Source: Myxococcales bacterium | GTDB taxonomy: Bacteria > Myxococcota_A > Polyangia > Polyangiales > Houyiibacteriaceae | Direction: 5' to 3' | DNA length: 34,377 bases | NCBI GenBank assembly: GCA_019637115.1 | Contig: JAHBWH010000080.1 | Span: 1-34,377 of the forward strand | Part shown: positions 2,869 through 34,377 of the stretch, piece by piece | Layout: every line of letters begins with the position of its first letter | Numbering within the stretch: position 1 is the stretch's first letter | Notes under the pieces: model-generated | Seen by the model: only the letters and a program-made list of their open reading frames with translations | Databases searched by the model: none | What the model was told of the DNA's origin: nothing | Program-made: the position numbers and the translations under genes

Positions 2869-3038
2869 GCTGCTCCTCGGTGGGCGAGGCGTCGGACCCG
2901 TTGGGCCGGCGCCTCGCCCATCGCCGTCTCCATGTCACTTTGCGCGATGACCTTGGTCCTTCGCGGGGGAGGCGGCGGCACCCGAACCCCGAGGCGGGCG
3001 GCGGGCCGCTCTCTGGTCTCCGCCGGTTCGCCGAAACC

Positions 3039-3178
3039 GGTCTCCGAGCACCGGTCTCCGAGCACTGGTCTCCGAGCACCGGTCTCCGAGCACTGGTCTC
3101 CGAGCACCGGTCTCCGAGCACCGGTCTCCGAGCACTGGTCTCCGAGCACTGGTCTCCGAGCACTGGTCTCCGAGCACC
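3039..3178. repeat. 14-bp minisatellite, ten tandem units
   Basis: Ten back-to-back copies of GGTCTCCGAGCACY start every 14 bp from 3039 to 3165. They differ only by C or T at the last position. A GGTTCGCCGAAACC flank precedes the first copy. The array fills the middle of the 333-bp gap between the amylase stop and the small lipoprotein start at 3202. A 14-bp period cannot keep a reading frame, so although several frames are open across it I regard it as non-coding. Confidence 0.97.
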
Positions 3179-7255: not shown

Positions 7256-7384
7256 CCGCGGATCACTCGGGCACGACGTGAAGCTGCGTGGGGCCGAGTC
7301 GAGCGAGCACCCGCGCGTGAGGAGGCCGGCCCGTGGGGCCGAGCCCGGCTCGAACTTCTGGGCAGAGGGAGTACAAACCTCGGC

Positions 7385-8008
7385 GTGCTGGCGGTCCGAG
7401 AGCTCGACGTGCGGATGGGGGATAGGGCGCTCCTGCGCGGGGTCTCCTTCGAGCTCGCGCCCGGCGAGGCGCTGACCCTCCGCGGCAAGAGCGGTCTCGG
7501 AAAGAGCACGCTGCTGCGCACGATCGCGGGGCTGCACGCCGACCCCGGCGACGCCGTCACGCTCGACGGCCGCAGCGCGCGCGCCTTCGGCGTCCCCGCG
7601 TGGCGGCGGCGCGTGACCTACCTCGCGCAAGCGCCCGTCATGCTCGAGGGGTCGGTCCGCGAGAACCTCGCGCGGCCCTTCACGTACCGGAGCGCGACCG
7701 GCGCGGCCTTCGACTCGGCGCGCGCCGAGCAGTGGCTGGCGGAGCTCGACCTCCCCGGCGTGCTCGATCGCGAGGCGGCGACCCTCTCGGGGGGCGAGAA
7801 GCAGCGCGTCCACCTCGTGCGCGCGTTGCTCGGCGGGCCCGCCGTGCTGCTGGCCGACGAGCCGACCGCGAGCCTCGATCCGGAGGGCCGCGCGCGCCTG
7901 CTCGACTGGCTCGACACCCGGCGCGGCGAAGGGCTCGCCGTGCTCTTCATCCGTCACGACCCCCGGCAAGGCGAGCGCGCGCTCGACCTCGAGGCGCTCC
8001 GTGGCTGA
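7385..8008 (+). CDS. fetA: ABC transporter ATP-binding protein, FetA-type
   Basis: ATPase subunit (207 aa) with Walker A GKSGLGKST, Q-loop region TYLAQAPVM, signature LSGGEKQRV, Walker B VLLADEP with TASLDP, and an H-loop His in LFIRHD. It is short like the FetA/YbbL family, and its stop overlaps the start of a FetB-type permease by eight bases, which fixes the assignment. Start is GTG 7385, because the strand preceding the Walker A begins there; a purine-rich AGAGGGAG lies rather far upstream. FetAB of E. coli is described as an iron exporter linked to peroxide resistance. Whether this pair moves iron is inferred from the family only. Confidence 0.88.
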   Translation: MLAVRELDVRMGDRALLRGVSFELAPGEALTLRGKSGLGKSTLLRTIAGLHADPGDAVTLDGRSARAFGVPAWRRRVTYLAQAPVMLEGSVRENLARPFTYRSATGAAFDSARAEQWLAELDLPGVLDREAATLSGGEKQRVHLVRALLGGPAVLLADEPTASLDPEGRARLLDWLDTRRGEGLAVLFIRHDPRQGERALDLEALRG

Positions 8009-8810
8009 GGGCGCCGACGTCATCGCGCTCTCGCTCGTCGACCTCGCGGGGGCGGCGACGCTCGTCCTGCTCGCCGGCGTCGTCAGCCTGCTGCTCCGGC
8101 TCGGGCTCGGAGGGCAGCTCGTCCTCGGGATGGTGCGCGCGACGGTGCAGCTCTTCCTGCTGGGCTTCGCGCTCCGCTGGATCTTCGCCCACGTCCACTG
8201 GGCGCTCACGGGCGGCGCGGCGCTCGTGATGATCTCGCTCGCGACCCGCGCGGCGCTTCAGCGCACGAGCCACGCGCTCGCGGGCGCCTTCGCGGGCAGC
8301 TTCCTGACGCTCGTGCTGACGGCCGGCGTCTTCGCGATCCTGGGCTCGGCGCTCTTCGTCGGGGCGGACCCCTGGTACCACCCGCGCTATCTCCTGCCGC
8401 TGCTCGGGATGCTGCTCGGCAACGGCCTCACGGGCATCTCGCTCTGCCTCGACAGCTTGCTGGTCTCGTTCGCCGACGATCGCGAGCGCGTGGAGCTCGA
8501 GCTCGCGCTCGGCGCGACGCGGTGGGAGGCGTCGCGAGATCCGCTCCGGCGCGCGGTGCGTCGGGGCATCGTGCCCATCGTGAACGCGATGATGGTCGCG
8601 GGCGTCGTGTCGATCCCAGGGATGATGACGGGGCAGATCCTCTCGGGGACCGAGCCCGTCGAGGCCGTGAAGTACCAGCTGCTCATCCTCTTTCTCATCG
8701 CGGGGGCCACGACGCTCGGCAGCCTAGGGGTGGCCGTCTTCGCGTCGATGCGCGCGCTCGACGAGGACCATCGCCTCCGCCCCGAGCGCCTCCGCCGGCG
8801 CGCGAAGTGA
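8001..8810 (+). CDS. fetB: ABC transporter permease, FetB/UPF0014 type
   Basis: Integral membrane permease (269 aa) with several hydrophobic helices and the conserved family segment LLGMLLGNGLTGISLCLD followed by VELELALGATRWEA, and later IPGMMTGQILSGTEPVEAV. These are hallmarks of the FetB/YbbM (UPF0014) family. Start is GTG 8001, inside the end of fetA, indicating translational coupling. The stop TGA at 8808-8810 overlaps a GTG at 8807 of the next gene. Partner of the upstream ATPase, probably an iron or metal exporter in the inner membrane. Confidence 0.9.
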   Translation: MAEGADVIALSLVDLAGAATLVLLAGVVSLLLRLGLGGQLVLGMVRATVQLFLLGFALRWIFAHVHWALTGGAALVMISLATRAALQRTSHALAGAFAGSFLTLVLTAGVFAILGSALFVGADPWYHPRYLLPLLGMLLGNGLTGISLCLDSLLVSFADDRERVELELALGATRWEASRDPLRRAVRRGIVPIVNAMMVAGVVSIPGMMTGQILSGTEPVEAVKYQLLILFLIAGATTLGSLGVAVFASMRALDEDHRLRPERLRRRAK

Positions 8811-9841
8811 CCGCGATGACCTCCGCGCGTCGCGTCCTCGTCGTCCTCGTCTGCGCGGCGCCCGTGCTCTTCGCCGTGAGCGCGCCGCTCCGTCGCGCCG
8901 TCGAGGCAGGCCGCGCGCTCGAGCGCTTCGAGCGCGGCGTGCCGCGCGTGGCGCGACGCGAGCACGTGGTCGAGGGGGTTCGGGTCCGGGACTTCGGCGC
9001 GGGGCCCGCGCTCGTGCTCGTGCACGGCGCGCACGAGGAGGGGATCGACGAGCCGCGGCTCGTGCGGCTCGCCGAGGTGCTGGCGGCGGAGGGCTTCGGC
9101 GTGCGCACCCCGGAGCTCCCGGGGCTCGTCGCGCTACGGCTCGAGCCCTCGGACCTCGACGCGCTGCGGCGCAGCAGCCCGCCCGGCGCCGCCGCGTTCG
9201 GCGTGAGCGTCGGTGGGACCTACGCGCTCCGCGTCGCCGCGGAGGCGCCGTCGGTCTTCTCGTCGCTGCTCGTGCTCGGCGCGCCCGCCGACCTCGAGCG
9301 GACGGCGCGCGCGCACCTCGTGGACGTCGAGCCGCGGGGTCAACCGCGGACGGTCGTCGATCCGCGGGGTCAGCCGCGGACGGTCGTCGATCCGCGGGGT
9401 CAGCCGCGGACGGTCGTCGATCCGCGGGGTCAGCCGCGGACGGTCGTCGACCCCTCGGGGCGACCAAGGACCGCCGTCGCGCGCGCGCACCCTTACGCCC
9501 ACCAGGTCTTCGCGACCGCCCTTGGCGGCGTCCTCGACGAGGCCTCGCTCGCGGCGGCGAGAACGCGGCTCGCGCGCCTCTCCCCCGAGCATCACCTCGC
9601 GGCGATCGAGCTCCCGGTCTTCGTCCTGCACGGCGCGGACGATCCGCTCGTGCCGACGGCCGAGGCGGACGCGCTCGCGAGCGCGCTCCCTCGCGCGAAG
9701 TGCTGGGTGTCGCCGCTGCTCGGGCACGCGGAGACGCGCGAGGTGGGCCTCGCCGAGCGCCTCGCGCTCGCCCGCTTCTTCGCCGAGGCCTTCGAGGCGT
9801 TCCGCCAGGCAGGAGCCACGCTGACGGTGCCGCCGCGCTGA
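8807..9841 (+). CDS. Alpha/beta hydrolase with in-frame 30-bp repeat insertion
   Basis: Alpha/beta-hydrolase-fold protein (344 aa) with an N-terminal hydrophobic segment (about residues 9-25, signal anchor). The oxyanion region is LVHGAH (71-76), the nucleophile elbow GVSVG (Ser134), the acid HGADDPLVP (Asp279) and the base LLGHAE (His307), so the triad looks complete. Between core strand VFSSLLVLGAP and the remaining fold, residues 176-225 are a tandem ten-residue repeat (PRGQPRTVVD), four near-perfect copies and one decayed. GTG 8807 overlaps the fetB stop (GTGA); ATG 8816 is the alternative start. Substrate unknown. Family breadth ranges from esterases to lipases. Confidence 0.85.
   Translation: MTAMTSARRVLVVLVCAAPVLFAVSAPLRRAVEAGRALERFERGVPRVARREHVVEGVRVRDFGAGPALVLVHGAHEEGIDEPRLVRLAEVLAAEGFGVRTPELPGLVALRLEPSDLDALRRSSPPGAAAFGVSVGGTYALRVAAEAPSVFSSLLVLGAPADLERTARAHLVDVEPRGQPRTVVDPRGQPRTVVDPRGQPRTVVDPRGQPRTVVDPSGRPRTAVARAHPYAHQVFATALGGVLDEASLAAARTRLARLSPEHHLAAIELPVFVLHGADDPLVPTAEADALASALPRAKCWVSPLLGHAETREVGLAERLALARFFAEAFEAFRQAGATLTVPPR
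9332..9481 (+). repeat. In-frame 30-bp tandem repeat inside the hydrolase gene
   Basis: Units begin at 9332, 9362, 9392 and 9422; a fifth, diverged unit spans 9452-9481. The first four differ by only a base or two. Each unit encodes PRGQPRTVVD and contains two CCGCGG palindromes spaced by GGTCAG. Because 30 is a multiple of three the expansion leaves the reading frame intact. Confidence 0.96.
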
Positions 9842-9924
9842 CGGTGCCGCCGCGCACATTTGCGGGTCTCGAGCTCGGCGCTCCTAAGCGCACGTCGTCG
9901 CCCGAGCGGTCAGGACGGAACGAC

Positions 9925-9952
9925 GAAGGGGAGCGCCGGAGCGCTCCCCTTC
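9925..9952. terminator. Bidirectional hairpin terminator between hydrolase and fusA
   Basis: A perfect 12-bp stem GAAGGGGAGCGC / GCGCTCCCCTTC with tetraloop CGGA sits between the convergent stops at 9841 and 9974. No U-tract follows on either strand, which is common in high-GC genomes. Confidence 0.75.
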
Positions 9953-9973
9953 ATCCGCCGGATGGCGGAGCCG

Positions 9974-12064
9974 TCACTTGTTCTTGGCGGCCTCGCGCTT
10001 GGCGACCTCTTCCTTGACCTGTTCGAGGATGTGCGGCGGCACGGGCGCGTAGTGGCTGAACTCCATCGAGAACTGGCCGCGGCCCGAGGTGGCCGAGCGG
10101 AGGTCGCCGATGTAGCCGAACATCGATCCGAGCGGGACGTCCGCCTTGATGCGGATCGAGCTCGCGCCCGGCTCCTGCGACTTGATCATGCCGCGGCGGC
10201 GGTTGAGGTCGCCGATGACGTCGCCGACGTTCACCTCGGGGACGAAGACGTCGACCTTCATGATCGGCTCGAGGAGCTGCGGCGCGCACTTCGGCATCGT
10301 GTGGCGGAACGCGGCCTTGGCCGCGATCTCGAAGGCCATCTGCGACGAGTCGACGGCGTGGAAGCCGCCATCCGTGAGCTTCACCTTGAAGTCGAGGAGC
10401 GGGTAGCCGCAGAGCGGGCCCTTCTCGAGCATCGACTTGAAGCCCTTCTCGACCGCCGGGATGTACTCCTTGGGGACGTTGCCGCCGACGACCGCCGACT
10501 CGAAGACGAAGCCCTCGCCGGGCTCGAGCGGCTCGATCGTGTAGTCGATCTTCGCGTACTGACCCGAGCCACCCGTCTGCTTCTTGTGGGTGTAGCTGTC
10601 GGAGACGGCGCGCGTGATCGTCTCGCGGTAGGCGACCTGCGGCTTGCCGACGTCGGCCTCGACGCCGTAGGTGCGCTTGAGGATGTCCACCTTGATGTCG
10701 AGGTGGAGCTCACCCATGCCCTTGAGGATCGTCTCGCCCGACTCCTGGTCGACCTCGGAGTGGAACGACGGATCCTCGGCGACCATCTTGCTGAGCGCGT
10801 TGCCGAGCTTCTCGCTGTTGGCCTTGTCGCGGGGGACGATGGCCATCGAGATGACGGGCGCGGGGAAGACCATCGGCTCGAGCGTCGCCGGGTTCTTCGG
10901 ATCCGCGAGCGTGTGGCCCGTGCGGACGTCCTTCATGCCGACGACGGCGATGATGTCACCCGCCTGCGCGGTCTCGATGAGCGTCCGGTCGTTCGCGTGC
11001 ATCTCGACCATGCGGCCGATGCGCTCCTGCTTGCCGGTCGCCGTGTTGACCAGCGCGTCGCCCTTGTTGATCGTGCCCGAGTAGATGCGGACGAACGTGA
11101 GCGTGCCGAAGCGGTCGTCCATGATCTTGAACGCCAGCGCGCGGGTCGGGCCGTTCGGGTCGACGATCGCGAACTTGCCCGTCTCGTTGCCCTCGAGGTC
11201 GATCTCCGGCTGCGGGTTGACCTCGGTGGGGTTCGGCAAGTAGTCGACGACGGCGTCGAGCACGTGCTGCACGCCCTTGTTCTTGAAGGACGAGCCGCAA
11301 TAGGTCGGGAAGAACGACATGTCGCGCGTGCCCTTGCGGATGCAGCGCTTGATGGTCGCGATGTCGGGCTCGTTGCCTTCGAGGTAGGCCTCGAGGACGT
11401 CGTCGTCCTGCTCGACGGCCGTCTCGATCAGCTCCGCGCGGTACTTCTCGACCTTCTCGACCATGTCCGCCGGGACGTCCTTGACGACGTAGTTCTCGGG
11501 AAGGCCCGAGTCGTCCCAGATGTACGCCTTGCGCTCGAGCAGGTCGACGATGCCGACGAAGTCGGCCTCGGTGCCGATCGGGAGCACCATGACGAGGGGC
11601 TTGGCGCCGAGGATCTTCTTGACCTGGTCGACGACGCGGTAGAAGTCCGCGCCGAGGCGGTCGAGCTTGTTGACGTAGATGATGCGGGCGACCTTCGAGT
11701 CGTTCGCATAGCGCCAGTTCGTCTCCGACTGCGGCTCGACGCCGCCCGAGCCGCAGAACACGCCGATGCCGCCGTCGAGCACCTTCAGCGAGCGGTAGAC
11801 CTCGATCGTGAAGTCGACGTGCCCGGGGGTGTCGATGACGTTGAGCTGGTGATCCTTCCAGAAGCAGGTCGTCGCCGCGGACTGGATGGTGATCCCGCGC
11901 TCCTTCTCCTGGTCCATGAAGTCGGTCGTCGCGGCGCCGTCGTGGACCTCCCCCAACTTGTGGATCTTGCCGGTGAGCTTGAGGATTCGCTCGGTGGTCG
12001 TCGTCTTGCCGGCGTCCACGTGGGCGAAGATGCCGATGTTGCGGTATTTGCTGAGGTCCTTCAT
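9974..12064 (-). CDS. fusA: Translation elongation factor G
   Basis: Complete EF-G of 696 residues, the usual length. Start ATG 12064 gives the canonical N terminus [20 protein letters not shown]. GTPase motifs: G1 AHVDAGKT (14-21), switch region [10 protein letters not shown] (about 56-65), G3 DTPGHVDF (78-85) and G4 NKLD (132-135). The C-terminal domain IV/V sequence ([32 protein letters not shown]) is intact. It catalyses GTP-driven translocation on the ribosome and, with ribosome recycling factor, subunit splitting. The gene stands alone, without rpsL, rpsG or tuf neighbours. It may be the only or a second EF-G. The long plus-strand ORF over it is a high-GC shadow. Confidence 0.97.
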
Positions 12065-16853: not shown

Positions 16854-17481
16854 GCGCGAGCGGCCGCTCTGCCTCGTCGGCATGAGCGGGGCGGGCAAGA
16901 GCCACGCGAGCCGGGCCCTCGCGGCGCTCGGCTTTGGCTGGCACGACTGCGACGCCGCCATCGCGGCGCGGCTCGCTGACCTCGTAACGCCAGAGCCAGG
17001 TGAGGCGCCCGTGCACGCGCTCGGGCGCTGGATGGGCATGCCCTGGTCGGCCGGCTTCGCCGAGCGCGAGGCGCGCTATCTCGCGCTCGAGGCGGAGGTG
17101 ACGCGCGAGGCGCTCGACGCCGCGCAGGAAGGGTCCCAGGTCGTCGACACGACGGGGAGCGTCATCTACCTCGACGAGGCGCTGCGGCAGGCGCTCCGCG
17201 CGCGCTGCGAGGTCGTCTACCTGCGCACGCCCGAGGCCGACTACGAGCGCATGCTCGCGCTCTACCTCGCGGAGCCCAAGCCGGTCGTGTGGGGAGGCCT
17301 CTTCGCGGCGCGGCCAGGAGAGTCGGACGAAGACGCGCTCGCGCGCTGCTACGCCGCGCTCCTGCGCGAGCGCGACGCACGCTACCTGGCGCTGGCGCAC
17401 CGCTGGATCTGGGCCACGGACCTCCGAGGCGCGGACGTGGCGGCGGTGCTCGGGCGCGCGCCGCGACGGAGCGCCCGATGA
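16843..17481 (+). CDS. Shikimate-kinase-like P-loop kinase
   Basis: Small P-loop kinase (212 aa) starting at ATG 16843, with GGAGG at 16832-16836. The Walker A motif is GMSGAGKS (13-20). HDCDAAIAARL (34-44) matches the Asp-x-Asp substrate-binding region of shikimate kinases, and VVDTTGSVIYLDE occupies the place of the family's GGG loop, though the glycines are reduced. RTPEADYERML and an Arg-rich lid-like region follow. True AroK has a conserved GGG; its absence here suggests a different small-molecule substrate. The stop overlaps an ATG at 17478 (ATGA), the first of three copies of the thioredoxin gene's 5' end. Confidence 0.78.
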   Translation: MGGERERPLCLVGMSGAGKSHASRALAALGFGWHDCDAAIAARLADLVTPEPGEAPVHALGRWMGMPWSAGFAEREARYLALEAEVTREALDAAQEGSQVVDTTGSVIYLDEALRQALRARCEVVYLRTPEADYERMLALYLAEPKPVVWGGLFAARPGESDEDALARCYAALLRERDARYLALAHRWIWATDLRGADVAAVLGRAPRRSAR

Positions 17482-17703
17482 GCGCCGTCCTGCACGCGAC
17501 CCCCGAGATCTCTTCGATCCTTGCGTCGACGTGCGGTAGCGCTCGGGCGCGCGCCGCGATGGAGCGCCCGATGAGCACCGTCCTGCACGCGACCCCCGAA
17601 ACCTTCGGTCCTCGCGTCGACGTGCGGTAGCGCTCGGGCGCGCACCGCGACCAAGCGCGCGATGATCCCCGTCCTGCACGCGACGCCCGAGACCTTCGAC
17701 GAG
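17431..17703 (+). repeat. Tandem triplication of the kinase/thioredoxin gene junction
   Basis: Three diverged copies of a unit of about 92 bp. Each joins the 3' end of the kinase gene (GGACGTG..GCTCGGGCGCGCGCC) to the 5' end of the thioredoxin gene (ATG then CCGTCCTGCACGCGAC). The start codons lie at 17478, 17571 and 17662, i.e. 93 and 91 bp apart. Copy 1 still overlaps the kinase stop. The middle copy lacks an 8-base stretch (ACGAGCTC) present in the intact gene. Confidence 0.9.
17478..17630 (+). pseudogene. Duplicated, decayed thioredoxin 5' end (50-codon relic ORF)
   Basis: An ORF from the ATGA overlap at 17478 to TAG at 17628-17630 reads through copies 1 and 2 of the duplicated junction. 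It contains MSAVLHATPE and MSTVLHATPE, each matching the MIPVLHATPE start of the intact thioredoxin gene. It has no CxxC and no thioredoxin fold. If translated it would work at most as a coupling leader between the kinase and thioredoxin. I call it a relic, with the leader role as the alternative. Confidence 0.65.
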
Positions 17704-22527: not shown

Positions 22528-22551
22528 CGGCGGACGGCGGTGGACGGCGCG

Positions 22552-22629
22552 CGCGGACGGTGCGGGCGGACGGCGCAGGCGGACGGTGCAGGCGGACGGT
22601 GCGGGCGGACGGTGCGGGCGGACGGTGCG
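22552..22629. repeat. 13-bp minisatellite, six units
   Basis: Units of GGCGGACGGTGCR repeat every 13 bp from 22565 to 22617, with a slightly shorter first unit at 22553. They lie in the convergent gap between pspA (stop 22527) and the porin gene (stop 22769). The rest of the gap (22630-22768) shows no gene. Confidence 0.93.
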
Positions 22630-22768
22630 GGCGACGCTCGCTCGATGGAGCGTCGCGTCGGCTCCTAGAGCCGAGCAAGGGGAACGAGCGAGCTTTCCTC
22701 CCCTCCCGCGCGGCGTTCGTGGGCGCTGGGACGCTGCGACGTTTGGAGTGCGTCGGGTGCAGTGACGC

Positions 22769-24310
22769 TCAGTAGAAGAGCTGGAGCTGGACGCGCGCCT
22801 GGTGCATCACGTCGACCAGGCGGTCGCCGAAGAGGACGCCGTAGTCCGCTTGGAGCTTCAGGTTGTGGCCGTGGATGTACCAGCCGACGCCGCCGAGGAG
22901 CTCGCGCTGGGTCGGCATCGCGCTGCCCTCGTGCGTGGGGCGGATCTCGGCGAAGCGGGCGGCGAGCTCGATCACGCTCACGAAGTAACCCGCCTGAAGC
23001 GTGTACCCGAACGCCGAGCCGAAGCGCTCGGTGACGAGGACGCCGTCGACCACCCCGGTCTGCGTGTCGGCCCGGGCCCGGCGCCAGAGCAGCTCGGCGA
23101 GCAGTGAGAAGCCGTTCCACTTGAAGGCCACGTCCGCCTCCGCGTGGAAGACGTCGAAGCCCTCGTCGAGCTGGAAGAACGCGCCGTGCGTGCCGTTCTC
23201 GCGGTGGGTGCGGTGGTTGTAGGCGAAACCCGCGCCGATCGAGAACCGCGGCGTGCGCGTGCGGAGCAGATCCGCCTCGGCGTAGGCGTCGTCGAAGCGG
23301 CCGGTCGGCTGCACCTGGAGCCTCGCGACGTAGAGCAAGCCGAGGTCGCGGTTGATGCGGTTGCGCCCGTTGCCCGAGTAGACGCCGAGCTGGGCGCCGA
23401 TGTAGCCGCCGAGGCCGAAGAGGTCGTTCGAGAAGAGCTGGATGCCGATGTCGCGATCGAGGTTGAGCGCGGCGTTGACGATCGAGCGGTCGACGAGCTG
23501 CAGCGCAGAGGAGCTGATCACGCGCTCGCGGTTGAACGGCACCTTGGTCTGACCGACCTGGACGCCGAGCTGACTCGTCGGCATCCACGTGATGACCGCG
23601 TCGCGGATGGGGTTGAAGTAACCAGGCTCGAGATCGCCCGGGGCGAAGCCGAGCTGGATGTAGAAGAGGAGCTTCGGGCTGCCGAGGTGGCCGAGGAAGA
23701 CGAGCCGCATGCGGCGGATGAGGAAGGCGAAGGCGTCCGCGGGCTCCTCGCCCGCGAGGTCGCGGGTGAAAGCGGCGCGGGCTTGGATCCGGCCGCGGAC
23801 GGTGAGCGAGAAATCGCCGTCGTCGCTTCGCAGCGTGATGCCGCGGCCGAACTCTGCCTCGAGACCCTCGGCGAGGGGCATCGCGGCGGTGGGCGGCATC
23901 AGCTCGGGGGTCGTCGGGTAGTGCTGGGCGTCGGCGGCCGCGGCGGTGTCCGCAGTGCCTGCGGAGGTGGAGCTCGTAGCTGCCGCCGAGGCGTCTGCAG
24001 TGGCGCCCTCGGATGCGGCAGCCGAGGGGGGCGGGGGGACGAGCGGATCGTCGTTCTCGCGCGGGGGAGGCTCCGCCTCGGACGGCCCCTCGGGAGACGG
24101 CGCCTCGGGAGACGGCGCCTCGGGAGACGGGCGCTCGGGAGACGGGCGCTCGGGAGACGGCGCCTCGGGAGACGGGCGCTCGGGAGACGGCGCCTCGGGA
24201 GACGGGCGCTCGGGAGACGGGCGCTCGGGAGATGGCGCGGGCTCGCCCGGCGCCTGTGCTCCGGCGTGAGCGGCGACGAGGAGGAGCGCGACCGCGAGGA
24301 TTCGAGCCAC
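22769..24310 (-). CDS. Phosphate-selective-porin-like outer-membrane protein
   Basis: Outer-membrane beta-barrel of the OprO/OprP (phosphate-selective porin) type, 513 aa. I chose GTG 24310, which gives the signal peptide MARILAVALLLVAAHAGAQA; TTG 24319 is possible. Residues 26-75 are ten PSPE(R/A/G) pentapeptides, then an Ala/Ser/Thr-rich stretch to about 125. The barrel follows: ITLRSDDGDFSLTVRGRIQARAAF is the typical first strand pair, FLIRRMRLVFLGHLG and LLFYIQLGFAPGD follow, and the end LQADYGVLFGDRLVDVMHQARVQLQLFY closes on an aromatic residue as barrels do. It probably forms a channel for anions or other solutes. No phosphate transport gene is adjacent, so specificity is unproven. Confidence 0.83.
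   Translation of the reverse strand: MARILAVALLLVAAHAGAQAPGEPAPSPERPSPERPSPEAPSPERPSPEAPSPERPSPERPSPEAPSPEAPSPEGPSEAEPPPRENDDPLVPPPPSAAASEGATADASAAATSSTSAGTADTAAAADAQHYPTTPELMPPTAAMPLAEGLEAEFGRGITLRSDDGDFSLTVRGRIQARAAFTRDLAGEEPADAFAFLIRRMRLVFLGHLGSPKLLFYIQLGFAPGDLEPGYFNPIRDAVITWMPTSQLGVQVGQTKVPFNRERVISSSALQLVDRSIVNAALNLDRDIGIQLFSNDLFGLGGYIGAQLGVYSGNGRNRINRDLGLLYVARLQVQPTGRFDDAYAEADLLRTRTPRFSIGAGFAYNHRTHRENGTHGAFFQLDEGFDVFHAEADVAFKWNGFSLLAELLWRRARADTQTGVVDGVLVTERFGSAFGYTLQAGYFVSVIELAARFAEIRPTHEGSAMPTQRELLGGVGWYIHGHNLKLQADYGVLFGDRLVDVMHQARVQLQLFY
24086..24235 (-). repeat. In-frame 15-bp repeat encoding PSPE(R/A) in the porin
   Basis: Ten 15-bp units at the 5' end of the porin gene encode PSPER, PSPEA or PSPEG directly after the signal peptide. 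The units differ mainly at the Arg/Ala codon. Confidence 0.95.
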
Positions 24311-27083: not shown

Positions 27084-28196
27084 TCACTCGAACGCCAGGA
27101 CGCGCTCCTCGCCCCACCGGTCGATCAACGCTCCCACGTACGACAGCAGCGTCTCGCGCCGCTCGAGCACGCCCTCGATCTGTGCGTCGCTCAGGAGCGG
27201 CGTCTGGGCGTGGCTCGGATCGGCGGCGAGCGCGCGCTCGATCGCGTCGCGGTCGAGCCGCTGCACGCGGTCGACGAAGCTCCGAGAGAAGCGCTCGGCG
27301 TAGACGAGGCGGTCGCGGATGCGGGTGTGGATCTCGCTCGAGATCGACGCCGCGAGGGCGACGTCGTGGTCGCGGATGATGAGCCGAGGACCCTCGTCGG
27401 TGCTCGCGAGCCCCTGCATGTTTCCGCCGCTGAAGCGGTCCCAGTTGGCGATCAGGTAGTCGAAGGCGACCGCGTTGGAGAGGTCGCGACAGAGTGCGCG
27501 CCGGTCGGAGGGGATCTCGCCCGATTGGCTCAGCCAGCCTCGCCACTCGACGAGCCCCGGGCCGCGATCGAGGCCGAGGTCGGTGAGCTCCGGTACCCAG
27601 TAGATCGAGGCGCCGGGGACGTCGCCGTTCGACTCGGGGACGAGCGTGCTCTGGATGTCGTTCCACGTGTCGGGATCGGCGTAACGGGCCTCGAGCCGGT
27701 CCCTGATCTCGTGGTTGCGGACGATGCGGACCGTCGCCGGCGGGACGTTCTCGAGGCCGAGGATGCGGGCCAGGCGATAGGCAGCGGCCTCGCGTAGGTA
27801 GCCCTCGCGGTGGGTGCGGCTTCGGGGCTTGAACGCGGCCGTGTGCTCGCTGCGCAGGCGCATCCGAAACGCCAACGAGGAGGTGCCGATCGGCTTGAAC
27901 TGTCGAGACGGAGTGTTCGCGAGCGCGTCGAGCAGCTCCTCGTGCGCGAAGGCGCCGGGAGGGAAGGTCAGGTCGCTCGGGACCTCGAGCGGCGCGGGCG
28001 GCTCAGGTTCGGGCTCTGGCGCCGGCTCGGGGGCGGCCGGGCGTTCGACTGGGGTCGGCGTGGGAGCCGGCTCGGTGGCGGCCTGTGGGGGGGGCTCGCA
28101 TCCTGCGGCGAGCGCGAGCCAGCACACTCCGCCCACGAGGGAGGAGAGCAGGGTCGGGCGGCGGGAGGAGGGGGCCACGGCGGGGGAGGGTAGCAA
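27084..28196 (-). CDS. Exported lipoprotein with Fam20C/HipA-like kinase fold
   Basis: Lipoprotein (370 aa): an Arg-containing N-region, hydrophobic core and lipobox AAGC (Cys33), then a Pro/Glu/Ala linker (34-71). The remainder shows the ordered motifs of the Fam20C/HipA-like kinase clan: TAAFKPRSR (Lys123, ATP-binding), REAAAYRLARIL (Glu136 in helix C), FDYLIANWDRFSGGN (Asp246; catalytic Asp253, Asn259), and LIIRDHDVAL (metal-binding Asp276/Asp278). All key positions are filled, so an active kinase is plausible. It would sit in the periplasm or on the surface, where ATP is scarce. Substrate unknown. No antitoxin-like partner is adjacent, so a HipBA module is unlikely. Function is inferred from motifs only. 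Confidence 0.7.
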   Translation of the reverse strand: MLPSPAVAPSSRRPTLLSSLVGGVCWLALAAGCEPPPQAATEPAPTPTPVERPAAPEPAPEPEPEPPAPLEVPSDLTFPPGAFAHEELLDALANTPSRQFKPIGTSSLAFRMRLRSEHTAAFKPRSRTHREGYLREAAAYRLARILGLENVPPATVRIVRNHEIRDRLEARYADPDTWNDIQSTLVPESNGDVPGASIYWVPELTDLGLDRGPGLVEWRGWLSQSGEIPSDRRALCRDLSNAVAFDYLIANWDRFSGGNMQGLASTDEGPRLIIRDHDVALAASISSEIHTRIRDRLVYAERFSRSFVDRVQRLDRDAIERALAADPSHAQTPLLSDAQIEGVLERRETLLSYVGALIDRWGEERVLAFE

Positions 28197-28228
28197 AGCG
28201 ACCGGCGGTCGAGGGGACGTGTCGACGG

Positions 28229-28261
28229 CTCGGGCCGAAGAACGGCGTTCTTCGGCCCGAG
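28229..28261 (-). terminator. Strong hairpin terminator after the acyl-CoA dehydrogenase gene
   Basis: Perfect 15-bp stem CTCGGGCCGAAGAAC / GTTCTTCGGCCCGAG with a 3-base loop, 27 bases past the acyl-CoA dehydrogenase stop (minus strand). It isolates the downstream kinase-like gene. No T-run. Confidence 0.75.
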
Positions 28262-28287
28262 CGCGGTGTCGCGGTGAGAGGAGGTGA

Positions 28288-29436
<1,149 letters not shown>

Positions 29437-29450
29437 GGGGACAACTCCGT

Positions 29451-29579
29451 TCAGTTCATGCGATCGCGGCGCTGGCGCTCTAGCTCGGCCCGCGCGGCGC
29501 GGGCGCCGAGGCGAAAGCCTAGAGCCAGGCCGAGCAAGAGCACGCCGGGGATGTAGAAGAGGTGATCGATCGACGGCAT
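29451..29579 (-). CDS. 42-aa membrane microprotein in the ccm cluster
   Basis: A short ORF starting at ATG 29579, four bases after the CcmD-like stop. It encodes a hydrophobic helix (about residues 8-24, FYIPGVLLLGLALGF) followed by a strongly charged tail (RLGARAARAELERQRRDR). The one-helix-plus-basic-tail plan is that of classical CcmD, which helps release haem-loaded CcmE. No family match can be claimed at this length. Evidence for reality: tight packing between the CcmD-like gene and the acyl-CoA dehydrogenase, and a sensible membrane-protein composition. There is no clear ribosome binding site; translation would rely on coupling. Confidence 0.55.
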   Translation of the reverse strand: MPSIDHLFYIPGVLLLGLALGFRLGARAARAELERQRRDRMN

Positions 29580-29583
29580 CGGA

Positions 29584-29895
29584 TCAGCTTCGCTGCTCGC
29601 CGATGCTCTTGCGCAGCGCGGCGAGGTCCTCGGCGGTGCGCGCGTGCAAGCGGCCTACGCGCCAGAAGTAGCCGAGGATGAGCACCCATGCGCCGGCGTA
29701 GGCGATGACCGTCAGCGTCCCGCCAGGGACCCGCTCGGCGTCGGGACCCGACACGGCGCGGAAGGTCGCCGCCCGGCGCGAGGGATCGTCGTCGGCCGTC
29801 GGCTCGTCTTGGGCTGTCGCTGGCGCCGCGGCGCCGACGACGAGCGCGCCGAAGACGAACGCGCGCTGGAAGAAGCGGAAGAAGGACTCCGTCAT
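29584..29895 (-). CDS. CcmD-like small membrane protein
   Basis: 103-residue protein. The N-terminal hydrophobic segment (FFQRAFVFGALVVGAAAPATA) looks like a signal peptide or first helix. A polar loop follows, then a second helix YAGAWVLILGYFWRVGRL and an Arg/Glu-rich coil ending in KSIGEQRS. The second half matches the short CcmD pattern of one helix plus a charged cytoplasmic tail. ATG 29895 overlaps the ccmC stop (ATGA), so the two are translationally coupled, which supports a role in haem delivery for cytochrome c maturation. Sequence similarity alone would be weak. Confidence 0.72.
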   Translation of the reverse strand: MTESFFRFFQRAFVFGALVVGAAAPATAQDEPTADDDPSRRAATFRAVSGPDAERVPGGTLTVIAYAGAWVLILGYFWRVGRLHARTAEDLAALRKSIGEQRS

Positions 29896-30623
29896 GACTC
29901 GCCTCCCAGGCCGCGTCGGGCCGCCTCGAGCTCGAGCGACGCGAGCTCCTGTCGTTGGCGCTCGACCCGGATCCGCGCCCACATCAACCAGACGAAGAGG
30001 ATCGTCACCGCGCAGAACCCGCAGACGAGCGCGGGCACCATGTCCTCGTGGATGCCGCCGCCGCCGCTCGCCAGCACCACGGGGTGCTGTCCGCTCCAGC
30101 GCTGGACGCTGAATTTGATGAGGAAGAGCAGCGGGAAGCCGACGATCGCGAGCGCCGCGGCGAAGCGCTTCTCGGCTTCGCCCGCGGCGCCGAACCCGCG
30201 CAGGGCGAGGAAGGACGAGTAGATCATCGCCGTCAGCAGGGTGCTCGTGATGCGCGGATCCCACGCCCAGTAGACGCCCCAGGCCTTGCGGCCCCAGAGC
30301 GGGCCCGTGAGCAGCACGATGAGGGCGAAGAGGGTGCCGATCTCGGCGCCTGCGAGGCTGAGCGCGTCCCAGCGGTCGCTGCGCTTCCAGAGGTACATCA
30401 GGCCGCCCAGCGCGGCCGCGGTCCAGCCGACGTACATGCCGTAGGCGCTCGGGACGTGGATGAAGAAGATCTTCTGCGACAGGCCCATCTGCTCTTCGAC
30501 CGGCGCGACCTCGAAGGCGAGGTAGAAGGTCGCGGGGAAGAGCACGGCGCTGAGGACCGCGAGGCCGGTCCAGAGAGCGCGGCTCGTGCCGCTCAGAGTC
30601 GAGGCGGGGTGGGTGGGGGCCAT
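29892..30623 (-). CDS. ccmC: Haem exporter/handling protein CcmC
   Basis: CcmC of system I cytochrome c maturation, 243 aa with about six transmembrane helices. The tryptophan-rich WWD motif WGVYWAWDPR (115-124) binds haem. Two conserved His on either side, IHVPSAYGMY (His56) and WSGQHPV (His180), correspond to the axial ligands known as His60 and His184 in E. coli. It transfers haem to CcmE at the periplasmic face. I chose ATG 30623; the frame remains open to 30665. The stop overlaps the CcmD-like start. ccmA, ccmB and ccmE are not in the window. Confidence 0.93.
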   Translation of the reverse strand: MAPTHPASTLSGTSRALWTGLAVLSAVLFPATFYLAFEVAPVEEQMGLSQKIFFIHVPSAYGMYVGWTAAALGGLMYLWKRSDRWDALSLAGAEIGTLFALIVLLTGPLWGRKAWGVYWAWDPRITSTLLTAMIYSSFLALRGFGAAGEAEKRFAAALAIVGFPLLFLIKFSVQRWSGQHPVVLASGGGGIHEDMVPALVCGFCAVTILFVWLMWARIRVERQRQELASLELEAARRGLGGES

Positions 30624-31078
30624 TCGTCGACGCGGGACGCTACCACGCGGCTTCGGGGGGGGCACGCCCGCGTGTTGGGTGGCTCGGGTGAGGCTCGCGG
30701 CTTCGGCCCGAGGAGCTCGCGGGCTTCGACGAGGATCGGAGCGTGCCTTCGATCAGAATCCGGTCGCGCGCTTCACGATGGCGGATGTGCCCTTCGTCGT
30801 GAGCGCGAGGACGCGTTGCTGGAGCGGTCCAGAGCCAGCAGCCTCGCCGACGATCGTGCCTCGCTCTTGGGTGCTCGAGACCAGAGCGGGCGGCCCTCGC
30901 CGACGAGCGCGCCTCACCCTCTTGGGGGGCGTCCCGCCCGGGACCCACCTGGCGTCCGCCACCCCCTCCGCCGCCAATCCGCCGCCAGGGGCCGTTTTGG
31001 CGGCCAAATTCGCGAATAATTTCAGTGCGGCATCTCGCGAAAACGCCAGGCACATCGCTTGCTCATCCGCTCGACGCG
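30624..31078. other. 455-bp gap upstream of the transposase, with palindromes
   Basis: I see no gene. A minus-strand frame is open over part of it but has no family likeness. The 3' part has a 7-bp hairpin GCCGCCA / TGGCGGC (30981-31004) and the palindrome ATTCGCGAAT (31008-31017) in a local A/T-rich patch, 60-100 bp before the transposase start. The A/T patch may hold the transposase promoter, or the hairpin may mark an element end. Confidence 0.5.
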
Positions 31079-32002
31079 ATGAGCAAGCCCCACCTCGTCC
31101 TGCCTGGCCAGGTCATCTCCACGAGCCGCCAGGTGCTCCACCGGCACTTCAGGCTGCGGCCCGACCGTCAGATGGTGGAGCTCTTCAAGTACCTCTTGGC
31201 GCTCTACGCGGCGAAGTACGGCATCAAGATTCACGTCTGCTGCCTGATGAGCACGCACTACCACCTCGTCTTCACGGACGTGCACGGCAATCGGGGCGAG
31301 TTCTTCCGCGACTTCCACTCGATGCTCACGAAGTGCGTGCTGGTCTATCGCGGGCTCCGGGGCACGTACGTCTTCGACAAGTCGCAGACGAGCCAGTGCG
31401 ACTGCATCAACGAGGCCGTCATCGAGGCGGTCGCGTACGCGCTCGCGAACCCGACGGCGGCGGGCATCACGTCGACGCCGAGCGAGTGGCCCGGCAACTT
31501 CTGCCACGCCGACGAGCTCGCGACGGGGAAGACCGAGCGGGTGAAGCGCCCCGACACCTTCCGCCGCGAGGACGGCAGCCACGTCCGCTTCTTCGACCTC
31601 GCGAGCGAGCGCTGGCCCGAGGAGGTCGAGCTCCGCTTCGAGCCCGTGCCGATGCTCGCGGACGCCGCGGAGTACCAGCGCCTCGTCCAGGTCGAGCTCG
31701 AGGGCCTCATCCGGAAGAAGCTCGAGGAAGCCGGCGGTCAGCCCTTCTCCCGCGTCCGCCAGGCCTCCGCCGCTCCATCCACGACCAGGCCAGCCAAGAC
31801 CTCCCCTTCGGCGAGCGCGAGCCCCGCATCAAGGCCGGCCGAGGCCAGAAGGCCGCGCGCGAGCAGGCCATCCACCGACCTCCGCGAGTTCTGGGCCCTC
31901 CACGCCGAAGCCGTCGCCAACTTCAAGAAAGGCGACGAGGTCGTCTTCCCTCCCGGCACCTACCGCTGGGCCAAGGTCTTCGGCTTCCCCGTCGCCACCT
32001 AA
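31079..32002 (+). CDS. REP-associated tyrosine transposase (HUH/Y1 type)
   Basis: Y1_Tnp (IS200-like/RAYT) transposase of 307 aa from ATG 31079. The HUH metal motif is in IHVCCLMSTHYHLVF (His60-Tyr-His62). The expected catalytic Tyr is Tyr120 in AVAYALANPTAAG, which occupies the place of the family's YI..NPVRAG segment. Such enzymes cleave single-stranded DNA at hairpins and form a 5'-phosphotyrosine bond. Unusually, residues about 215-270 are a Ser/Pro/Arg linker leading to a short extra C-terminal module (TDLREFWALHAEAVANFKKG ending in WAKVFGFPVAT). RAYTs are single-copy and linked to REP repeats; here a dense repeat array starts 70 bp after the stop. Confidence 0.88.
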   Translation: MSKPHLVLPGQVISTSRQVLHRHFRLRPDRQMVELFKYLLALYAAKYGIKIHVCCLMSTHYHLVFTDVHGNRGEFFRDFHSMLTKCVLVYRGLRGTYVFDKSQTSQCDCINEAVIEAVAYALANPTAAGITSTPSEWPGNFCHADELATGKTERVKRPDTFRREDGSHVRFFDLASERWPEEVELRFEPVPMLADAAEYQRLVQVELEGLIRKKLEEAGGQPFSRVRQASAAPSTTRPAKTSPSASASPASRPAEARRPRASRPSTDLREFWALHAEAVANFKKGDEVVFPPGTYRWAKVFGFPVAT

Positions 32003-32071
32003 CGCCCGACCCACTCCAACGGAGCCCACCGGATGCCCCAGCGCCGGCAGGCCCCACTGCGCCCCGAGCCT

Positions 32072-32252
32072 CGCGTGACCCACCCCGGCCACGCCGAGGC
32101 CGAAGTGCGTCCGTCGCCCGCCGCGACCCGCCGCGCTCGAACGCGGCGCGCGCGCCCGCGCCGACCCGCGCGAACCGCAGAGCGAGAACCATCCGCTCCG
32201 ACTGAACCACGCGCTCCGCGCGCTCGAGGCCGTCCTTCGGTTCGCCAGCTTC
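32072..32252. repeat. Long direct repeat, copy 1 (about 181 bp)
   Basis: From CGCGTGACCCACCCCGG to TTCGCCAGCTTC. Nearly the same sequence recurs at 32295-32473, two bases shorter and with a few substitutions. The end contains the array's core CCTTCGGTTCGC. Confidence 0.93.
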
Positions 32253-32294
32253 CCCGCCGCGCGCTCGAGGCCGTCCTTCGGTTCGCCAGCTTCC

Positions 32295-32473
32295 CGCGTG
32301 ACCCACCCCGGCCACGCCGAGGCCGAAGTGCGTCCGTCGCCCGCCGCGACCCGCCGCGACCGAACGCGACGCGCGCCCGCGCCGACCCGCGCGAACCGCA
32401 GAGCGAGAACCATCCGCTCCGACTGAACCACGCGCTCCGCGCGCTCGAGGCCGTCCTTCGGTTCGCCAGCTTC
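32295..32473. repeat. Long direct repeat, copy 2 (about 179 bp)
   Basis: Second copy of the unit at 32072-32252, separated by 42 bp that include another CTCGAGGCCGTCCTTCGG core. Confidence 0.93.
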
Positions 32474-32522
32474 GTCCGCGTCGGTTCGCCAGCTTCGTCC
32501 TTCGGTTCGCCAGCTTCCCGAC

Positions 32523-32782
32523 TGAACCACGCGCTCCGCGCGCTCGAGGCCGTCCTTCGGTTCGCCAGCTTCGCCAGCTTCGCCGGTTCGCCAGCTTCGC
32601 CAGTTCGGGTCGGTTCGCCGCTCGAGGCCGTCCTTCGGTTCGCACATCGCGGTGAACCACGCGCTCCGCGCGCTCGAGGCCGTCCTTCGGTTCGCCAGCT
32701 TCGCCAGCTTCGTCGGTTCGCCAGCTTCGCCAGTTCGGGTCGGTTCGCCGCTCGAGGCCGTCCTTCGGTTCGCACATCGCGG
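32523..32782. repeat. Perfectly abutting 130-bp tandem duplication
   Basis: Two adjacent copies (32523-32652 and 32653-32782), each from TGAACCACGCGCTCCGCG to CGCACATCGCGG. The one difference I see is GCCGGTTCG against GTCGGTTCG. Inside each are smaller CAGCTTCG repeats. Confidence 0.94.
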
Positions 32783-33034
32783 AGGCCGTCCTTCGGTTCG
32801 CACATCGCGGCATCGGTTCGCACGCCGCGCGCGTCGGTTCGCACGCCGCGCCGGCGCCGTCCTTCAGTTCGCGCGCCGCCTCAGTTCGCGCGCCGCCTCG
32901 GGGTTCGCGCGCCGCCACCGCCGCGGTTCTCGGGTCGCGCGCCGCCGTTCGCCAGCGTCGTCGGTTCGCCCGACGTTGTCGTTCGCCGGGCTGTAAGGGA
33001 GGCGAGCCGTCCCGCGGCGGGCCATGATGCGGGC

Positions 33035-33916
33035 ATGTCCTTGCGGAGCTGGGTGCGGGCCGCGCGGCCTTTGGCGCAGGCGAACATCGCGCCGCCGGTG
33101 CTCTTCGGCCAGGCGCTCGCGTGGGGGCTGACGGGGCGCTTTTCGTGGGGGGCGTTCGCGCTCGTCCTGCTCTGGGGCGTGCTGGATCAGGTCTTCATCG
33201 TCTTCGCCAACGACGTCGCTGACGCGCCACACGATCGCGCCGATGCGCGCACGCCCTTCTCGGGCGGCAGCGGCGTGATCCCCGAGGGGCTCCTCTCTCG
33301 CGGCACGCTCGCGCGGGCGGCTCTCGTGGTCTTCGCGGTGCTCGGTGCCGTCTCGGTCGGCCTCGCGATCACCGCGAGCGCGTGGGCGCTCGCCGCCTGG
33401 CTCGCCGCGGGCGGGCTGGTCTGGGCCTACAGCTTCCCGCCGCTCCGGATGAGCTATCGCGGAGGTGGTGAGCTGCTCCAAGGGCTCGGGGTGGGCGCGG
33501 TCTTGCCGCTGCTGGGGTTCGTCGCGCAGGCGCAGGCGCTCGGCCCATTTCCTCGGTGGGTTCTGATCGCGACCGTCCCGCTCGCGATGGCAGGCAACGT
33601 CGCGACGGCGCTCCCGGACGAGGTCGCAGACCGACGCGCCCTCAAGCGGACGTGGCCCGTGCGTATGGGGCGGACACGCGCGGCGTGGGCGTGTCTCGGG
33701 CTGACGGTGGTCGCCCTGTACGCTGCGCTCGCGCTCGCGGTGATGAGACCGGAGACCGGCGCGACGCCCGCCGTCGCGCTCGCCGCCCTGCCGCTGCTCG
33801 GCGCGCTCTTCGTGAACGTGCGGACTCGGCGGGGGGCCCTCGTCTTCGTCGTCTTGCACGGCGCGACGACACAGCTCTTCTGGCTCGGTTGGGGGCTCGC
33901 GCTCATCCTGGCCTGA
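33035..33916 (+). CDS. UbiA-family prenyltransferase
   Basis: Integral membrane prenyltransferase, 293 aa, about eight to nine helices. First Asp motif: FANDVADAPHDRADAR (Asn59-Asp60, Asp63, Asp67), binding Mg-diphosphate. Second Asp motif: LPDEVADRRALKR (Asp195, Asp199). YSFPPLRMSYRGGGE (132-146) resembles the segment of MenA-like enzymes. It attaches a polyprenyl chain to an aromatic acceptor, plausibly 1,4-dihydroxy-2-naphthoate in menaquinone synthesis; other acceptors cannot be excluded. ATG 33035 is the first start after the repeat array; the upstream open frame is repeat-derived and not included. Confidence 0.85.
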   Translation: MSLRSWVRAARPLAQANIAPPVLFGQALAWGLTGRFSWGAFALVLLWGVLDQVFIVFANDVADAPHDRADARTPFSGGSGVIPEGLLSRGTLARAALVVFAVLGAVSVGLAITASAWALAAWLAAGGLVWAYSFPPLRMSYRGGGELLQGLGVGAVLPLLGFVAQAQALGPFPRWVLIATVPLAMAGNVATALPDEVADRRALKRTWPVRMGRTRAAWACLGLTVVALYAALALAVMRPETGATPAVALAALPLLGALFVNVRTRRGALVFVVLHGATTQLFWLGWGLALILA

Positions 33917-33920
33917 AGGG

Positions 33921-33952
33921 ATCGGTCGCATCGTCGGGCGAGCGCGACCGAT
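33921..33952 (+). terminator. Possible terminator after the prenyltransferase gene
   Basis: ATCGGTCGC (33921-33929) can pair perfectly with GCGACCGAT (33944-33952) around a 14-base loop, starting four bases after the stop. The remainder of the gap to 34027 shows no gene. Confidence 0.45.
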
Positions 33953-34027
33953 GCGTTCGACGGCAACCGGCGTCACAGGCCCGAACGTCGAGACGCAACC
34001 GACGTCGGACGGGCTCGACGGATGCGA

Positions 34028-34377
34028 TCAACGTCCGAGCCGCGCCTCCGCGACACACATCAAGGTGCGCAGGTCGTCCCCGTCGGTCGGCGCGCACGCG
34101 AGCCCGATCGCGACGTCGAGGCCGCACGCGCCCTCGACGTCGATCTGCGCGACCTCCTCACGGAAGCGCTGGAGCGCAGCGGACATCGGCTCGGCGCTCG
34201 TCTCGGCGTACCCCGCGACGAAGAACGGATCCCGCCAGAGGCCGCGGACGTCCTCCATGCGAAAGCGCGACGCGAGGAGCTGCGCGACGGCGGCGCGGTG
34301 CGCCGGGCTCACCGCTCCGCGGAGCTCGAAGACCGCGAGCGTGAAGGGGCGCGCGCGTCGGCGTGTCTCGCTGAGAC
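34028..34377 (-). CDS. C-terminal end of a protein with a degenerate GGDEF-like domain (partial)
   Basis: The frame is open to the window edge, so the 5' end lies outside; GTG 34312 is probably internal. The visible sequence follows the GGDEF fold order: strand RPFTLAVFELRG, helix HRAAVAQLLASRF, then GLWRDPFFVAGYAE at the place of the RxGGDEFxxxL turn, helix SAALQRFREEVAQ, strand GLDVAIGLACAPTDGDD and the final helix LRTLMCVAEARLG. The GG(D/E)EF residues are replaced, so it should not make c-di-GMP. It may be a receptor or structural remnant in a regulator. Assignment rests on pattern, not on catalytic motifs. Confidence 0.5.
   Translation of the reverse strand, partial: LSETRRRARPFTLAVFELRGAVSPAHRAAVAQLLASRFRMEDVRGLWRDPFFVAGYAETSAEPMSAALQRFREEVAQIDVEGACGLDVAIGLACAPTDGDDLRTLMCVAEARLGR

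Follow-up and report, generated by a model that had tools for sequence, protein, structure and literature searches.

RAYT transposases (TnpA_REP) have an HUH motif and a tyrosine core with Y-x3-NP, and those that have been characterised cut single-stranded DNA at C|T, become joined to it by a 5′-phosphotyrosine link and transfer the 3′-OH to a T (PMC8266576). They are low in copy number and diverged (domesticated). Tandem clusters of REP/REPIN sequences that include flanking sequence, some of them beside RAYT genes, have been described (PMC3116915), and PMC3733652 reports REP clusters that are repeated together with variable lengths of adjoining DNA; tandem REP clusters of this kind, flanking sequence included, are already known. 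The TIRYT/TIRtron elements of PMC3733652 encode a tyrosine transposase with a long C-terminal extension and carry terminal inverted repeats (TIRs), not REPs. They largely correspond to subclass 2.1 of PMC6006769, which has a C-terminal HTH-like domain (Bac_DnaA_C, HTH_23 or HTH_28). Members of the IS200/IS605 family (IS608, ISDra2) are small single-gene elements with a Y1 HUH transposase.

The window (the whole stretch of DNA analysed, 34,377 nt) carries a gene for a related enzyme, and the features of this locus are listed in Table 1. The HUH and tyrosine core with Y-x3-NP is common to RAYTs and the window family. The locus differs from RAYT systems in having about nine near-identical copies per genome, a C-terminal extension of ~110 residues, and arrays built of the element tip itself, with no dispersed REP family. 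Unlike IS200/IS605 transposases, the window protein has Y-x3-NP in place of Y-x3-Q, is not matched by Pfam Y1_Tnp, and comes with a long C-terminal domain and end arrays. As in TIRYT/TIRtron elements, TIRs are seen in relatives, such as CCGACCGAGGTTG...CAACCTCGGTCGG; they are clear in G009 and G111-G115, but no clear TIR is present at the ends of the window element or in its own subfamily.

Table 1. Positions of the element, its gene and the adjoining array in the window.
Feature	Position	Strand	Remarks
Conserved left (5′) end, CCACCTGGCGTCCGCCACCCCCTCCGCCGCCAATCCGCCGCCAGG...	30945..30995	+	9 genome copies, ≤1 mismatch
Predicted HUH/Tyr (TnpA-Y1, RAYT-related) transposase gene	31079..32002	+	307 aa; HYH, predicted catalytic Tyr, FPxGTW/Y domain
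Stretch out of frame relative to homologs	31750..31880, limits approximate	+	Bounded by two compensating indels
Element 3′ tail ending ...CGCGCTCGAGGCCGTCCTTCGGTTCG (right tip)	32003..32244	+	92-96% identity in C5, C382, C261
Two-copy repeat, period ~221	32072..32520	+	TRF, 93% matches
TCGGTTCG, commonest unit start	32237..32244	+	27/57 distinct left breakpoints, 9/10 arrays
Array of tip-suffix + locus-specific units	32245..32988, right limit approximate	+	
130-bp tandem duplication	32523..32782	+	32523-32652 / 32653-32782, 99% identical

The HUH motif of the protein is HYH at residues 60-62 (H60-Y-H62), and Tyr 120, within the motif YALANP, is the predicted catalytic residue; H60, H62, Y120, N124 and P125 are invariant in alignments of 19 and 24 homologs. 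No Pfam family was matched by the window protein (P0001), and a PDB sequence search with the transposase gave no match. Three homologs reached 18.3-22.1 bits with Pfam Y1_Tnp (cut-off 23). Against NCBIfam REP_Tyr_transpos (NF047646) the window protein scored 20.8 bits and the homologs 21.9-44.5 bits, all below the cut-off of 80. The fold comparison was made on a homolog (L237) standing in for the window's protein; its predicted model (pLDDT 92) had the E. coli RAYT 4er8 as its best PDB match (Z 12.8, 155 residues, 3.3 Å; Foldseek E 7e-5, TMt 0.71), followed by IS608 (Z 9.6), and the IS200/IS605 structures matched at Z 8-9.6. The first-pass annotation had called the enzyme RAYT-type, and a RAYT-related transposase is supported by the sub-cut-off NCBIfam match together with the modelled fold of this homolog.

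The C-terminal domain with FPxGTW/Y is kept across the whole family, but when modelled alone it reached a pLDDT of 73, too weak for a structure search. In seven family members no HTH Pfam match of the kind given for subclass 2.1 appeared up to E 1, a limit that leaves room for remote similarity. The extra module that the first-pass annotation had placed after a Ser/Pro/Arg linker is therefore genuine, though family-wide, while the linker itself reads as a frameshift artefact of the window copy. Residues ~225-266 are out of frame, the alternative frame encodes the conserved ...RRSIHDQASQDLPFGEREPRIKAGRGQKAAREQAIHR... that matches a paralog (L051), and the copies at C5 and C382 have one base fewer than the window copy at ~31878.

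The transposase gene is the body of a multi-copy mobile element, not a lone gene. Gene and flanks make up an element of ~1.3 kb present in about nine copies in the 8.9-Mb genome. The nine close matches to the left end all lie at contig ends except the window's own, three more variants have 2-3 mismatches, and a control pattern gave 0. The right tip reads ...CCGTCCTTCGGTTCG, with its last base at 32244, and beyond this the sequence is locus-specific; right ends are similar in number to the left ends. The 3′ part of the gene plus the tail was found again at C5 and C382, and the tail or array at C261, C233, C374, C109, C424 and C101, mostly at contig ends. Many of the 434 contigs of the assembly end in the transposon because its near-identical copies broke the assembly, and for several right-end arrays the gene lies beyond the contig. 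Two paralogs (58% identity) are located at C20 and C113. The neighbours are ordinary: upstream lies a gene for cytochrome c assembly, and downstream one for a UbiA prenyltransferase. Elsewhere in the genome, a solo right-end array with no transposase gene (L053, G000:C109, 2066-2160) lies 2 kb from a second such array and adjoins left-end-like sequence. About ten copies of GGTCGTTGGACGC occur upstream of the left end at L131 (G000:C253), the unit there being without the element end. A CRISPR-like array (L052, G000:C20, about 6620-11530; dozens of units of the ~37-bp repeat GTCTCAATCCCCTGAGCGGGGCTCTGCCGTTTCCGGCC) lies downstream of a paralogous transposase (58% identity), starting ~300 bp away.

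If this were a RAYT-REP system in the strict sense, REP hairpins and a dispersed REP family would be expected. When folded as ssDNA, the ends did no better than shuffled sequences (z -1.0, 1.0, 0.4, 0.0), and no dispersed REP family was found in the genome, so the strict reading is not supported. The left-end palindrome has 12 occurrences with ≤3 mismatches, nine of which are the element's own left ends. An RNA family search of 28000-34377 found none, with one sub-threshold match.

The repeats start 70 bp past the gene stop, at 32072, and form a nested array, just as first described. Of the ~0.9 kb then taken to be almost wholly repeats, the array stands, but 32003-32244 belongs to the element as its conserved 3′ tail. 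Nine exact copies of the tip 12-mer CCTTCGGTTCGC were counted again, at 32234-32801. The 130-bp tandem duplication was likewise recovered and, by its near identity, looks recent. The supposed 180-bp direct repeat has the right offset but amounts to 104 nt of 100% identity, 180 nt offset (32149/32370), within the period-~221 repeat, which copied part of the 3′ tail along with early array units. The units of the window array begin with CCAGCTTC..., followed by ACATCGCGG, ACGCCGCGC and GCGCCGCC variants. Genome-wide there are 24 copies of CCTTCGGTTCGC, 22 of them inside such arrays and the other two lone matches, unlike the flanking repeats of RAYTs, which are abundant elsewhere; the reversed control pattern matched once, and no CCTTCGGTTCGC clusters were found away from element ends anywhere in the genome. 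The rightward decay of the copies was also confirmed. The tip part of the units shortens away from the gene, from a mean of 39 nt in the proximal half to 11 nt in the distal half, and proximal units have the longer tip suffixes (permutation p 2e-4, 8 arrays); the newest units adjoin the element. Other tandem arrays in the window (3036-3178, 9325-9479, 17448-17699, 22542-22633 and 24081-24238) have no relation to the transposon as far as seen.

Each unit consists of a variable-length suffix of the element tip followed by a prefix of locus-private sequence. The sequence after the tip is CCAGCTTC in the window, TGCTCGG at C5, CCGGCTCCG at C382, CCGCTGGCG at C261, CTCGCGAGGC at C233, TGCCCG at C109 and CGCTCGTCG at C424. 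Within one locus the identical prefix recurs after the tip, cut to differing lengths, and units can also include long pieces of the 3′ tail of the element itself (as much as ~100 nt). The identity of the 8-mers right of the junction was 0.55 with all locus labels kept and 0.395 when labels were shuffled, with 0 of 2000 shuffles reaching the observed value. Spacers modelled as flank-prefix plus tip-suffix, using equal numbers of candidate flanks, fitted same-locus flanks at 0.90 and those of other loci at 0.72, with 70% and 11% of spacers, respectively, at ≥0.9 identity. By the label and spacer tests together the arrays are shown, as far as sequence comparison goes, to be repeated tandem duplications across the element/flank junction. 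The private unit sequence would be target DNA from before the insertion, since in some arrays it continues into the unique flank, as does the last prefix copy at C233. No clean empty site was found among the relatives compared: G001 (same genus) shows no synteny across the insertion, the intergenic sequence of g2 relatives is too diverged for comparison, and five loci compared via one flank were uninformative on the private sequence. The best case, L383, has no gene at a site occupied in L335 and still retains a left end and three right-end units.

Left breakpoints were counted from suffixes of 6-40 nt, made distinct by context although not strictly independent events, and 27 of the 57 fell exactly at CCT|TCGGTTCG, where a null model of uniform starts with chance extension expects 2.8%. 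The flank-side (right) breakpoint varies. The base preceding TCGGTTCG in the units is G, C or A, never T as in the element, and microhomology at the joins has a median of 1 nt (control mean 1.0). This pattern points to a putative nick just 5′ of TCGGTTCG, at 32236|32237. The breakpoint in the window's subfamily, to which the fixed position applies, is T|T, the unit starting with T after an element base T. Characterised RAYTs cut at C|T (PMC8266576), differing from the T|T deduced here from breakpoints, and a T at the unit start is common to both. In the relative genus G111-G115 unit starts peak instead at the TIR start CAACC, which may merely reflect TIR length. Neither PMC3733652 nor PMC6006769 mentions junction-spanning arrays with a fixed breakpoint in the parts accessible, and no description of a fixed breakpoint or of family-wide private arrays was found in the openly searchable literature (subscription papers aside).

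Homologs are present in 45 of 57 relatives and in 41 of 89 high-quality genomes of the order; a search for related loci with the window protein alone returned none. Those in other genera are ~30% identical and have arrays at the equivalent place. A TRF array starts 180-320 bp past the stop at 20 of 63 loci, compared with 11 of 361 background windows (3.0%; Fisher test, p 4e-11). Downstream of the stop, TRF cover is 21-23% at 200-300 bp and ~3% further out; upstream of the start it is 9-13% at 50-200 bp and ~1% further out. Control loci of DDE transposases had ~9% TRF cover downstream with no sharp peak (n 22-30), and for this reason the test took its background from within the loci. Five loci in G009 have the tip CAACCTCGGTCGG or CAACCTCGGTTGG in common, with the unit differing per locus. 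The G111-G115 genus (including Sorangium cellulosum So ce26) has 5′ arrays at 30 of 33 copies and 3′ arrays at 18 of 33, and arrays occur in 16 of 154 element-free control windows. The link of gene and array thus recurs at other copies in the same genome, at homologs and in G111-G115, and a chance neighbourhood was rejected; the earlier question of genome-wide repeats and array-less homologs was answered in favour of the link, though a 3′ array detectable by TRF is absent from about two thirds of those homologs that are more distant. The element is best explained as a single-strand (HUH/Tyr) transposon belonging to a RAYT/TIRYT-like family that has spread among Polyangiales-type myxobacteria.

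L339 and L351 represent one insertion shared by two genomes, with flank identities of 81% and 86%. L339 is ~430 bp longer on the left and ~306 bp longer on the right, filled with end units, and L351 has single ends and no arrays; the difference may represent growth in one or loss in the other. The most regular left-end array seen, at L333 (G112), lies about 900-130 bp upstream of the gene and holds some thirty near-identical copies of GCGACCGACCCAGGTTGG. At L125 (G002:C18) a perfect 114-bp tandem duplication directly precedes the start codon of the homolog, and at L126 (G002:C11, 1748-1832) the homolog's element directly adjoins a tRNA-Leu gene. At L335 (G112) and L347 (G114) two elements lie beside the same gene in opposite orientation, hinting at preferred insertion sites.

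We consider it probable that this ~1.3-kb HUH/Tyr transposon, once inserted, has had its tip/target junction duplicated repeatedly, the array growing by transposase nicking and short re-copying. The transposase would nick the element tip and stay linked through its tyrosine to the 5′ end (TCGG...); from the 3′-OH released in this way, synthesis would run across the tip and into the flank for a short and variable distance; and the new 3′ end would be rejoined to the tyrosine-linked 5′ end, adding one unit. The later 221- and 130-bp duplications could be further rounds, or ordinary recombination between units. That the enzyme may generate the array had been suggested from the first, and the fixed tip breakpoint favours it; we infer that the transposase drives the duplication because unit starts are fixed, joins lack microhomology, arrays lie at the ends and the known chemistry of relatives fits. 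Somewhat more tentatively, the family as a whole may write arrays in place, by repeated nicking of the tip, re-copying with host flank and rejoining, giving each locus a private array.

Passive growth, in which host replication slippage or recombination expands short GC-rich end repeats and the transposase merely brought the ends, is the less likely account, although the near-perfect 221- and 130-bp duplications resemble ordinary unequal exchange, and tandem arrays unrelated to the element occur in the window and in the element-free windows of relatives. It leaves unexplained why left breakpoints favour one position at the tip, why the joins have almost no microhomology and why arrays occur at both ends family-wide. 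Passive slippage possibly produced some of the growth, and is the probable source of the 221- and 130-bp duplications.

Serial insertion of short non-autonomous right-end fragments (REP-like or MITE-like), stacking beside existing ends, is improbable. Solo ends do exist, as in the gene-less array at C109 and the end units of L383, and enzymes of this HUH type are believed to mobilise REPs (PMC2817692, PMC3116915), but incoming fragments would be without the locus-private flank, and the spacers fit same-locus flank far better. It is very unlikely that the element inserts into pre-existing arrays containing its target sequence: all loci share the octamer TCGGTTCG, as would be expected of a target motif, but the units hold long stretches of the 3′ tail, no CCTTCGGTTCGC clusters were found away from element ends, and the orthologous insertion L351 is array-free. 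An assembly artefact of this fragmented genome, with its many contigs ending in the element, is also very unlikely, as the same structures are present in the single-contig genomes G112 (14.8 Mb), G113 (14.6 Mb), G114 and the Myxococcales MAG CP070713.

The origin of REP clusters and BIMEs beside RAYT enzymes is an old open question. Under repeated junction duplication by the transposase, the arrays described here would record the reaction itself, many times over and in independent insertions, the acceptor site being fixed within the tip and the donor end varying within the flank. If true, this would provide a directly testable model of the way in which REP/BIME clusters are built by RAYT-type enzymes, and the question would become one of a simple cleavage and strand-transfer assay. 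It points to an enzymatic, and not only slippage-driven, birth of bacterial tandem repeats.
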